37,672 nt of DNA, taken from contig JANYAF010000180.1 in NCBI GenBank assembly GCA_025355175.1, forward strand, positions 1 to 37,672, read 5' to 3'. This DNA comes from Deltaproteobacteria bacterium. Its GTDB lineage: Bacteria > Desulfobacterota > Syntrophia > Syntrophales > Smithellaceae. The notes under the pieces were generated by a model. The model had not been told where the DNA came from, did not search any database, and worked only from the letters and a program-made list of their open reading frames with translations. Made by a program: the position numbers and the translations under genes. Positions 3,081 through 27,021 of the stretch are shown piece by piece. How positions within the stretch are numbered: the stretch's first letter is position 1; each line of letters opens with the position of its first letter.

Positions 3081-3247
3081 CCCGCTTAAGCGGGACGAGC
3101 GTTAATTCTCCGCAGCTTGCTGCGAGATGGTAGATTAGCCACTCCAGTTGCCCAAGCGTCACGCCCATGCAGCTTTCGTTGCCTTCCCTCCACCCATTTT
3201 ATACGGGATGACCCCTTTCATCACGAGTGTTGCCAGGGGTCATCCCG
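3081..3247. repeat. Cluster of three inverted repeats between livJ and the SDR gene
   Basis: Three palindromes sit in one spacer. CCCGCTTAAGCGGG at 3081-3094 is a perfect 14-bp palindrome. CGCAGC-TT-GCTGCG occupies 3111-3124. A 13-bp perfect inverted repeat pairs 3204-3216 (CGGGATGACCCCT) with 3235-3247 across an 18-base loop. The last lies 23 bases beyond the livJ stop and could fold as a terminator or mRNA-stabilising hairpin for the liv transcript, but no T-run follows it. The packing of unrelated palindromes is typical of dispersed REP-like intergenic elements. Confidence 0.7.
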
Positions 3248-3269
3248 TCAGGAGGGGGAATGAGTTATA

Positions 3270-17074: not shown

Positions 17075-17157
17075 CTCCTTTTTTGAAGGAGGGTTAGGGA
17101 GGATTTTGTAAACCTGCTTAAATCCCCCTTAGTCCCCCTTTAGAAAAGGAGGATTTT
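17075..17157. repeat. Imperfect inverted repeat (REP-like intergenic element)
   Basis: A T- and G-rich arm with GAAGGAGGGTTAGGGAGG and ATTT (17075-17106) mirrors AAATCCCCCTTAGTCCCCC and a following AAAAGGAGGA (17119-17153), with a few mismatches. It fills the spacer between the M15 gene and the stop of the glycosyltransferase fusion. The CCCCCTTAGTCCCCC core is typical of dispersed intergenic repeats in many Gram-negative genomes. Confidence 0.55.
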
Positions 17158-19609
17158 AATAAGCTGTAATGATGGCTTTTATGATTTTGTCGAGCGTCTC
17201 CTCGTTAAGCGATACTTCCCTGTAGATATCGCGGATAGCGCCGCAATCCAAATGTTCATAATCTTTCAGAAGAGGAGTAATGACGACACCTGCCATGTCA
17301 ATGGCCCCGGGTGAGACGAAAATTCTGTCTTCACTTTCGGCATAGTAGGTATCGGGACGGTGCTTCCGGCGCAAAAAGACCGTGAGACGCAGGCAACCTT
17401 TATCGTGATCGCAAAAGACATTCACCGGTGGTTCATCGTTTGTTGTGAACACTTCCTGTGCGGATTTTAATAAATGAATGAATTGTTCTTTCAAAGCTTC
17501 TGTGTCTTCAGATACCAGTACGACAACAGCGCGATCAAACCATTTTTCTGCATGGATTTGAACAGTTGCGCCAACTTTAACCGGCGGCAGTTCGTTTAAC
17601 TCCTTCAGGAAGGGAAGGGTACCCGAGGGGATCATCTGAAAATGCAAATGATCGGGTGCGGAAGCGCCGCAGGCCGGGCCATTATATAAAACCGTATAAT
17701 CCGGCGAAGCGTCTGTGGCTAGTTGTAAGAGCCAACTAAGAGATGATGTAATGTCCTGCGGCTGGTGTTTAAGTGTAACAACGGTAAAATGCCTGTCGAA
17801 AATCGGCGCGGGATTGCAAAGAATCAGGTAGCGATTGCGGTATAAAATGCCATGTTGGCCGGGCGGTAAATTCCCCCGGCATAAAAAACAGGGGCGCTTG
17901 CGAATAGATTCGGGATCAACGGACGCGCTTCCGCTTACCACACGGGCGGGATTGAATTGCAAGGTCACATCATACCTTCCGCATGATAGCTGCCTTGTCC
18001 GGATGGATTCCAAATTCCGGTAGGCTTCGGCTAACACAGGCCAGCTTTTCTTTTGCGATTCATAGAGATCGAGGCAAAGGGAGGAAAGAGTCATTATTTT
18101 CCTGTCGGGGTATTCGGCATAAATTTGACCCGGCGATGAAATGACTTCTGTAGGGAACGATCTCGCCACCCGCACGGGTGGTCGCGAGCGTTCCCTACAA
18201 TTCATCAGTTGCCTTGCTTGAATTTCCAGTGTTCGTAGTTTGTCTTTATAATAGTCGTTACGATTTTGTTTTTCGATGGAAAGCCCCGCATCGGTATTGT
18301 CCGACCAGCGGCGGCATAGATAAAGGCTTTCATAGATTCGACCGATGCGGTATTCGCGCGATATTCTCAACGCCACGGCATAATCTTCACCGTAGCTCAC
18401 ATTGGGAAAACCGAATTGGCGGATGACGGACGTGTCAAAGGCGCGGGGCGCTCCCATGCCGTTGACGCGCAGGAAATTATTGTGGCCGTTTTTGGGCGTC
18501 CATTCGCGGTGATCAATGAGTCCTGGAGGAATCTTTTTCAGGTGTTCATTAACCAGTGTATAAGAACCCACGACCATCGCATATTGTCCCCGTCGTAAGG
18601 TGGTGACGATTTTTTGAAGTGTCTGCGGCGAGCTGTAAAGATCGTCGGAGTCCAGCTGAATGATATACCGACCGCAATGTGGCGAATAAATTGCTTCATT
18701 CCAGCAGCCGCCGATACCGAGATCACGCCTAGAAGGGATAATATGTTGAATATGGGGATATTTTGCGGCAAACTTTTTCAAAATATTTGTGGTGCCATCT
18801 GTGGAATGATTATCCACAACCAGGATGTTGAAGGGGAAGTCCGTCTGTTGTCCCAAAGCGCTCGTCAGCGCGTCGGTAATGGGTTTTTTACGGTTGAGCA
18901 CGGGAATGACGATACTTGCCTTCCATTGGAAAGCCGCCGGCTCTCTATCAGTCCTTTTTGTACGCGCAGGTAAGTGCGCTCCGATTTGCTTCAGATAGTT
19001 TGTTGCGATCTTCTCCATCGTTTGCTGACGGACGAAATTTTCTTTTGCGACATAGGCAAATTGTGCCTCTGTTTGCCTATCTGATGATTTTGCCGGCTTA
19101 ATCTTTTTTGCGGATACCGTGTACAAAGACTCCGGCACGTGAATCAAGGCATGATCGATGGAAATTTTCAGACGCAGATCATATAGAGCGGTGGATGCGT
19201 CATGGGGTGGCCCGCCATATTTTTGCAAAACGGTTTTAACGGCTGCCGTAGAGATTATAAAAAAATGGCCGAAGCTGAAATCATCGCGAATCGAACCTTC
19301 CTGATGGTCGTTCAACGGGTGCGCGCTGATGTCGTCCCCGTCGCGGCACAGGAAATCCGAATAAATCATCCCCGCCCCGGTATCGCGGGCGATGGCCAAG
19401 AGCCTTCGCAATGACTGTTGATCGCATGAGACGTTCGTCGTCGAATCCACCGCCAGTAAATAACCAGACGATATTTTGCTGAAGAACGAAGAAGGTCGGC
19501 CGGCGGCTTTGACCGCGTCTGCTCCGGCGGGCCAGGTGTTTGCCGCCTGTTTTTCATCCGCTGCGCACCAGAGTAAAAAACGTCCTAATTTGTAAACCGA
19601 AGGTTTCAT
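17156..19609 (-). CDS. Fusion of a family 2 glycosyltransferase and a DUF4922/GalT-HIT-like nucleotidyl-transfer domain
   Basis: An 817-residue protein with three parts. Residues 35-165 look like a degenerate glycosyltransferase half (AGMIYSDFLCRDGDD). Residues 229-440 are a full GT2 domain: KASIVIPVLNR, VVDNHSTDGT, LDSDD at 319-323 as the metal/nucleotide-sugar site, and YGEDY near 406-410. Residues 505-810 match the DUF4922 type, with a possible zinc pair CFLC (574-577) and HLHFQ (654-658), the H-x-H-x-Q pattern of GalT and Ap4A-phosphorylase-type HIT enzymes. Residues 471-487 are encoded by a palindrome inserted in frame. The gene follows lptE by 22 bases on the same strand and may be co-transcribed with it. 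Joint sugar transfer and nucleotide-sugar chemistry is inference; substrates are unknown. Confidence 0.85.
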   Translation of the reverse strand: MKPSVYKLGRFLLWCAADEKQAANTWPAGADAVKAAGRPSSFFSKISSGYLLAVDSTTNVSCDQQSLRRLLAIARDTGAGMIYSDFLCRDGDDISAHPLNDHQEGSIRDDFSFGHFFIISTAAVKTVLQKYGGPPHDASTALYDLRLKISIDHALIHVPESLYTVSAKKIKPAKSSDRQTEAQFAYVAKENFVRQQTMEKIATNYLKQIGAHLPARTKRTDREPAAFQWKASIVIPVLNRKKPITDALTSALGQQTDFPFNILVVDNHSTDGTTNILKKFAAKYPHIQHIIPSRRDLGIGGCWNEAIYSPHCGRYIIQLDSDDLYSSPQTLQKIVTTLRRGQYAMVVGSYTLVNEHLKKIPPGLIDHREWTPKNGHNNFLRVNGMGAPRAFDTSVIRQFGFPNVSYGEDYAVALRISREYRIGRIYESLYLCRRWSDNTDAGLSIEKQNRNDYYKDKLRTLEIQARQLMNCRERSRPPVRVARSFPTEVISSPGQIYAEYPDRKIMTLSSLCLDLYESQKKSWPVLAEAYRNLESIRTRQLSCGRYDVTLQFNPARVVSGSASVDPESIRKRPCFLCRGNLPPGQHGILYRNRYLILCNPAPIFDRHFTVVTLKHQPQDITSSLSWLLQLATDASPDYTVLYNGPACGASAPDHLHFQMIPSGTLPFLKELNELPPVKVGATVQIHAEKWFDRAVVVLVSEDTEALKEQFIHLLKSAQEVFTTNDEPPVNVFCDHDKGCLRLTVFLRRKHRPDTYYAESEDRIFVSPGAIDMAGVVITPLLKDYEHLDCGAIRDIYREVSLNEETLDKIIKAIITAY
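18149..18199. repeat. 51-bp imperfect palindrome inserted in frame in a coding sequence
   Basis: TGTAGGGAACG (18149-18159) pairs with CGTTCCCTACA (18189-18199). CTCG (18162-18165) pairs with CGAG (18185-18188), and CCACCCG (18166-18172) with CGGGTGG (18175-18181), leaving small bulges of two and three bases. Its length, 51 bases, equals 17 codons, so it adds CRERSRPPVRVARSFPT to the protein without breaking the frame. It falls between the two enzymatic domains. This is the pattern of a mobile palindromic element tolerated inside a linker. Confidence 0.8.
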
Positions 19610-25731: not shown

Positions 25732-27021
25732 CTACTTCTTCCCATACTCCGGATCTATCTTCACCAGCGCCGTGACGATAAATCCGGGGATCGTTGTAAC
25801 CAGAATCCAGAAATAGAAATTTTTATAACCCAGCATGTCTTGAACCCAACCGCTGGCCATCGCCGGCAGCATCATGCCCAGAGCCATGATGCCGGTGCCG
25901 ATGGCGTAAAAGACAGTTTTGTATTCCCCCTGCGACACCATAATCATATACATCGTGTAAGCGGTAAAACCAAACCCGTAGCCGAACTGCTCAATCGCCA
26001 CGGCGGAACCGATCAGCCATAAACTTTGGGGCAGCGCGTGTGACAGATACACAAAAATCAAATCCGGCACGTGCATAATGATTACCATCGGCCAGAGCCA
26101 GAATTTCAAGCCATTTCTATAAATGACATACCCGCCCAAAAGCCCGCCCAGCATGAGCGCCACAACGCCGATGGTGCCGTAAATCAAACCGACTTCGGTG
26201 GTGGAAAGCCCCAGACCGCCTTTGGCGGGGGAATCGAGCAGAAAGGGCGCGACCATTTTCACCAACTGCGCTTCGGCAAAGCGGTAAAACAAAAAGAAGC
26301 AGATGATGATGACAATATCCTTGCGCCGGAAGAACAATGTCAGGATTCGGAAATACTCCGCAACCAGACTTTTCCCTTTATCCAGGGACGCGCTGTGGTC
26401 TGATTGGGGGTAGGGCAGGACGAAAAAATGATAAAGGCACAAGGCCAGGAAAACCGCCCCGGCGACTAAAAATGTAATCGACCAGGCGGAAGCGACCGGA
26501 TAACCGTATTTTTGTAGAAGGCCTGCCAGAATCACCAGGCCGCCTTTGGAAGCGATGGTGGCCACGCGGTAAAAAACCGTGCGCACGCCGACAAACGCAG
26601 CTTGCTCGGGCGTATTGAGCCCCAGCATGTAAAAGCCGTCGGCGGCAATGTCATGTGTGGCGGAACTAAAAGCCATAATCCAGAACATCGCCAGGGTGTA
26701 TCTTACAAAGTCCGTTGTGGGCAAAGTCAGAGCCACACAGGCGAACGATCCGCCGATGGCCAGCTGCATGGCGATAATCCAGAAGCGCTTGGTGCGGAAA
26801 AGATCGACAAAAGGGCTCCAAAGCGGCTTGATCACCCAGGGAAGATAAAGCCAACTGGTGTAAAGAGCGATTTGGGTGTTGGAGAGACCCAGGTTTTTGT
26901 AAAGCACCACGCTGACGGTCATGGCGATCATGTAGGGAACGCCTTCCGTTATATAAATGGAAGGCACCCAGAGCCAGGGGTTGGGGGTTCTTTTTACTGT
27001 TTTTTCGTTTGATGGGGACAT
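25732..27021 (-). CDS. AmpG/PAT-family MFS permease (muropeptide transporter-like)
   Basis: A 429-residue permease with about 12 hydrophobic helices. The AmpG-type signatures are IYITEGVPYMIA at the start, LYLPWVIKPLWSPFVD in the first loop and SSATHDIAADGF around the helix-4 region, the classic PAT-family motif. AmpG carries GlcNAc-anhydroMurNAc peptides from the periplasm into the cytoplasm. Here it follows the SpoIID-domain gene by 57 bases with AAAGGA in front of its ATG, so the two are probably co-transcribed. AmgK and MurU about 1 kb away would use the imported sugar. Family is clear; muropeptide substrate is inference from context. Confidence 0.87.
   Translation of the reverse strand: MSPSNEKTVKRTPNPWLWVPSIYITEGVPYMIAMTVSVVLYKNLGLSNTQIALYTSWLYLPWVIKPLWSPFVDLFRTKRFWIIAMQLAIGGSFACVALTLPTTDFVRYTLAMFWIMAFSSATHDIAADGFYMLGLNTPEQAAFVGVRTVFYRVATIASKGGLVILAGLLQKYGYPVASAWSITFLVAGAVFLALCLYHFFVLPYPQSDHSASLDKGKSLVAEYFRILTLFFRRKDIVIIICFFLFYRFAEAQLVKMVAPFLLDSPAKGGLGLSTTEVGLIYGTIGVVALMLGGLLGGYVIYRNGLKFWLWPMVIIMHVPDLIFVYLSHALPQSLWLIGSAVAIEQFGYGFGFTAYTMYMIMVSQGEYKTVFYAIGTGIMALGMMLPAMASGWVQDMLGYKNFYFWILVTTIPGFIVTALVKIDPEYGKK

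Follow-up and report, generated by a model that had tools for sequence, protein, structure and literature searches.

Subclass 2.4 of the TnpA_REP (RAYT) transposases is marked by double-foot REPs and by REPs that lie within the tnpAREP gene without breaking its frame, an arrangement known in other phyla; double-foot REPs have been suggested to arise by central deletion (Quentin et al. 2018, PMC6006769). GTAG REPs that form in-frame parts of coding sequences, where they are proposed to occupy linkers or loops, have also been published from outside Rickettsia, as have REP ends that supply the TAG stop of an adjacent gene (Di Nocera et al. 2013, PMC3733652). Two other systems invite comparison. 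The palindromic elements of Rickettsia (RPE) lie in frame in protein genes and are tolerated as additional peptide, and in BIME/REPIN elements two inverted REPs and a spacer make one long hairpin.

The palindrome described here lies in a window (the whole stretch of DNA that was analysed, 37,672 nucleotides) from a 2.9-Mb Smithellaceae MAG. The initial annotation likened it to the RPE. As to behaviour the likeness is apt, since members of the family have entered protein genes in frame (a GT2-DUF4922 fusion, a type II NADH dehydrogenase and a RAYT), but the element is of another kind: the host protein has its nearest named relatives in MAGs of Smithellaceae and Syntrophaceae, a different phylum from that of Rickettsia, most copies lie between genes, and there is a RAYT to which the family is linked. 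The further remark that such elements are not usually reported in this kind of organism loses force with the prior report of in-frame REPs outside Rickettsia (PMC3733652). The element is a double-foot GTAG REP of subclass 2.4. Like those described (PMC6006769), it has GTAG and CTAC at opposite ends of a long hairpin, many dispersed copies that are mostly intergenic, and a transposase gene that is flanked by the same REP (a REPtron), carries one in frame between its HUH and Y motifs, and has the NHxH, WQ and YIxNNP motifs. It differs in being a new, Smithellaceae sequence family, in having interiors with swappable or nested inner hairpins, and in size differences (51 or 30 bp) between orthologous copies. 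With the published intragenic REPs (PMC3733652) it shares in-frame coding copies and REP-derived stops; its hosts, the GT2-DUF4922 fusion and NADH dehydrogenase, are different and have insert-free orthologues in the same genus.

What is added is modest: a new sequence family, host genes with insert-free orthologues, changes of size at one site, a linker that three repeat families have entered, and the empty site of a whole RAYT unit. New here are orthologues at one site that differ by loss or gain of an inner hairpin (51 or 30 bp), which inform how double-foot REPs form, and the entry of three repeat families into a single linker. For a mobile palindrome that has become part of a protein outside Rickettsia, the relatives offer a range of states to compare (insert absent, 30 bp, 51 bp, decayed or replaced), and a candidate for the transposase is encoded in close relatives.

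The palindrome and its host gene

The 51-bp element (Table 1) reads TGTAGGGAACGATCTCGCCACCCGCACGGGTGGTCGCGAGCGTTCCCTACA. Its 17-nt arms are 88% complementary and enclose an inner CCACCC/GGGTGG hairpin, and its minimum free energy of -37.1 kcal/mol compares with -17.5 (sd 3.0) for shuffled sequences (z = -6.6). It was reported as near-perfect; the palindrome is genuine, but the adjective is slightly generous for a stem that has a few mismatches or bulges. Rfam holds no family matching it. A single TGTAGGGAACG at position 26931 of the window has no partner arm and was taken as a chance occurrence.

As the initial annotation had it, the palindrome adds 17 residues, without breaking the frame, to the linker between two enzyme domains, here GT2 and DUF4922. 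Comparison of orthologues shows that linker to be hypervariable in both length and sequence. A poor AlphaFold model of the host protein, made from a thin alignment (mean pLDDT 58.9), places the insert in a low-confidence predicted coil following a helix. This is compatible with a flexible linker, but as evidence it counts for little. The insert may well be neutral for the enzyme.

Table 1. Coordinates of the palindrome, its host gene and related features (positions in the window unless a locus is given)
Feature	Location	Strand	Basis
Host gene, GT2-DUF4922 fusion, 817 aa	17156..19609	-	ORF; Pfam PF00535 (E 6.7e-22) and PF16269 (E 1.4e-54)
GT2 domain, PF00535, residues 232-366	18512..18916	-	Pfam
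DUF4922 domain, PF16269, residues 515-660, with HLHFQ motif	17630..18067	-	Pfam
Hypervariable interdomain linker, about residues 467-507; landing place of three repeat families in relatives	18089..18211	-	Orthologue comparison
Double-foot GTAG REP, 51 bp, in frame, coding for CRERSRPPVRVARSFPT (residues 471-487)	18149..18199		Pattern, fold, covariance model, family alignment
Outer arm TGTAGGGAACG, GTAG foot (+ strand)	18149..18159		Arm match
Outer arm CGTTCCCTACA, GTAG foot on the - strand	18189..18199		Arm match
Inner hairpin module, 21 bp, CCACCCGTGCGGGTGGCGAGA on the - strand; missing in the 30-bp orthologue of G006	18161..18181		Orthologue comparison
RAYT gene of G006	L215 1712-2284	-	NCBIfam NF047646 REP_Tyr_transpos (E 7.6e-14)
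RAYT+REP unit, ~600 bp	L215 1712-2317 (G006:C8:119365-119967)		
Decayed palindrome copy inside NDH-2	L196 2001-2070 (G000:C21:7760-7829)		

A dispersed family and its transposase

The family has the form TGTAGGGAACG...CGTTCCCTACA, starting with GTAG at the 5' end and closing with the complementary CTAC at the 3' end. Of 20 genomes from the genus, 14 contain the pattern GTAGGGAACG-N(6-36)-CGTTCCCTAC; the reversed pattern, run as a control, gave no match. Exact copies are most numerous in G006 (34), followed by G011 (14). By a covariance model, the window's own genome has about 15 copies, G006 about 51 and G015 about 13, so that the related palindromes elsewhere for which the initial annotation proposed a search exist at many loci, both in the own genome and in relatives. 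The commonest form is a single perfect 30-bp palindrome, TGTAGGGAACGGTCGCGACCGTTCCCTACA, unlike the two REPs and spacer of a BIME or REPIN; the 51-bp form does resemble an inverted pair with a central hairpin. Other members hold an inner CCACCC/GGGTGG, GTGACC/GGTTAT or ATCCGG/CCGGAC hairpin, sometimes nested. A census of 78 copies from three genomes places almost all of them between genes; roughly 13 provide the TAG stop of an adjacent gene from their own GTAG end. Copies within genes are rare tolerated events. Four further, weak in-ORF candidates (L190, L204, L225 and L254) have no Pfam match and were treated as lying in spurious ORFs.

These copies are probably spread by a small transposase. 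None of the RAYTs recovered with PF01797 is flanked by this family, the cognate gene falling below the cut-off of that model, probably because of the REP that it contains. It came to light on reading the flanks of the copies in G006, and its score against NF047646, 51.8 bits, is also under the curated cut-off of 80. Three family copies bracket and enter this gene: one upstream, one internal and one at the 3' end. The internal copy is 30 bp long, in frame, and directly behind the HUH motif (MPNHLHGIIHV|VGNGRDRSL). G011 has a homologue (L276), 64% identical, with an identical layout of copies. The motifs are NHVH, WQ and YIVNNP in G011 and NHLH, WQ and YITNNP in G006, where the L deviates from NH[IFV]H. 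The two genomes that carry the gene are also the two richest in exact copies of the palindrome. We infer that it was this G006/G011 RAYT family that moved the copy in the window.

A cognate RAYT was sought in the window's own genome and not found there, so that movement in that lineage must be old or in trans. The RAYTs that this genome does encode (C63, C156 and C191) were rejected as candidates, each having its own, different GTAG REPs. In G004, a genome 88% complete with 11 exact copies, no RAYT was detected. In other RAYTs of the order (L259, L261-L264, L266-L268, L277 and L279) a GTAG palindrome, a different one in each, sits in frame immediately behind the HUH motif, and matching copies often flank the gene.

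The complete RAYT and its REPs in G006 sit between two genes that read, from their sequences, as 2-hydroxyacyl-CoA dehydratase subunits. In G000, G008 and G015 the unit is missing at the orthologous site, where the flanking genes are 93-97% identical and separated by an 11-bp spacer. The upstream gene ends in a pre-existing GTAG that adjoins the junction of the unit, which is what targeting of GTAG would predict; on the other side the spacer differs too, and that junction is therefore not clean. At this site, the one precise empty site, no target-site duplication is seen. REPtrons reportedly do not transpose as units, and this empty site makes their mobility testable. Two further G006 copies are missing from orthologous intergenic sites of relatives.

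Linker states and changes at orthologous sites

Orthologues of the host gene within the genus present several states of the linker. A 51-bp copy is found in the window gene and L015, a 30-bp copy in L014, L016 and L020, and a decayed copy in L021, L023 and L040. There is no insert in L017, L018, L026, L028 and L029, nor in the sister genera g2 and g3. An unrelated repeat, TCATTCCCGCGCAGGCGGGAATCC, takes its place in L032, L038 and L039, with a diverged copy in L040; this repeat is dispersed too, with 1-7 exact copies in each searched genome. All complete linkers of the genus are in frame (one, L041/L103, is obscured by Ns). The initial annotation had proposed comparing homologues for a linker that lacks the 17 residues, and such homologues exist, with no insert, a shorter one or a different one, always in frame; together with the dispersed copies they bear out its suggestion of a mobile palindrome able to enter genes.

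Mapped on to the gene tree, the pattern of presence requires five changes, so that a single insertion and several insertions are inseparable, and the insert-free linkers have diverged to the point at which the ancestral empty site of the linker copy is unreadable. Between L096 (in G008) and L068, identity of 88-98% drops to 55-77% around the linker and returns to 92-95%, which implies replacement of the linker region by recombination; about 600 bp were taken over from a divergent lineage, the palindrome being swapped for the unrelated repeat. In L080, from a Syntrophaceae MAG, a third, unrelated in-frame insert makes the linker about 130 bp longer than that of its sister L077, which lacks the insert.

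The type II NADH dehydrogenase (NDH-2) provides a second case. In G000, G006 and G008 it carries a decayed in-frame copy of about 70 bp, and in G010 a shorter in-frame insert resembling a decayed 30-bp form. The gene is insert-free in most other relatives (72 nt as against 183 in the compared stretch); G018 and G009 show other length variants.

At orthologous sites the interior of the palindrome varies while arms and flanks are constant. The forms are 51 and 30 bp in the window linker and L068, and likewise in L190 and L198, where only one flank aligns; they are 53 and 43 bp in L185 and L201, 49 and 30 bp in L187 and L244, and 51 and 69 bp in L204 and L254. The consensus 51-bp form contains short direct repeats (GACC), deletion between which would yield the 30-bp form. 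The same-site differences match the suggested central deletion, although the direction of change is our inference. The arms can also change. At one orthologous intergenic site (L208 2001-2030 and L183 2001-2030), GTAGGG is replaced by GCCCGG with complementary changes opposite, so that the arms stay paired, an outcome that either template switching or selection for pairing would produce.

Origin of the linker copy

The account that we favor, at a probability of about 0.88, is that a double-foot GTAG REP, spread by its cognate RAYT, inserted in the linker of an ancestral gene and was later remodelled, decayed or replaced. An HUH/Y1 transposase (RAYT/TnpA_REP, subclass 2.4-like), intact in G006 and with the same layout in G011, would disperse the copies. 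REP-type single-strand transposition would have placed one of them in the GT2-DUF4922 linker in an ancestor common to several species of the genus. As both lengths, 30 and 51 bp, are divisible by three and one of two open frames was in use, the copy would have added a linker peptide and persisted. Afterwards the inner hairpin was lost or gained, the arms decayed in part of the species, and recombination in G008 replaced the linker region with that of an allele bearing the unrelated repeat. Points that weigh against this account are the failure to find a cognate RAYT in the window's own genome or to detect one in G004, the score of the G006 gene below the curated cut-off, the five changes required by the gene tree and the unreadable ancestral site of the linker copy.

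It could be argued instead that the REP first lay between separate GT2 and DUF4922 genes and that a later fusion read through the trapped element. Other genera do have the two domains as separate neighboring genes, which in g4 and g6 overlap at TGATTG, exactly at the linker, and an intergenic start would suit a family of mostly intergenic REPs. The fused, insert-free form, however, occurs in g2 and g3 as well as in several species of the same genus, so that the fusion most simply came first, and NDH-2 has a like in-frame insertion within one enzyme with no fusion. This order of events seems to us improbable. Slightly less probable still is that the hairpin is kept for a local function, for example as an mRNA structure that slows translation between the domains or stabilizes the transcript. 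The strength of the fold and the symmetric paired changes at the L183/L208 site, which preserve the palindrome, would suit such a role, but those changes can come from template switching without selection, many species have no hairpin at this place, the arms have decayed in L023 and L040, and other species have another repeat there. A chance palindrome, unrelated to any mobile element, might be looked for in so variable a linker, but is refuted by the exact arms at dispersed loci, the empty control and the fold.

Returning to insertion of a mobile REP, a more tentative extension can be put forward: complete RAYT+REP units might move as a unit on to pre-existing GTAG sites, often TAG stops, and hairpin tips might be hot spots at which inner palindromes are gained or lost, so that several repeat families would land time and again in one linker.

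Two other stretches of the window have repeat-like features. Immediately downstream of the host gene, at 17076-17165, is ctccttttttgaaggagg ... aaatcccccttagtccccctttagaaaaggagg. Between two minus-strand genes, at 3203-3248, is another compact palindrome, with 22-nt arms that are 86% complementary and a 2-nt loop, possibly a terminator or another repeat.
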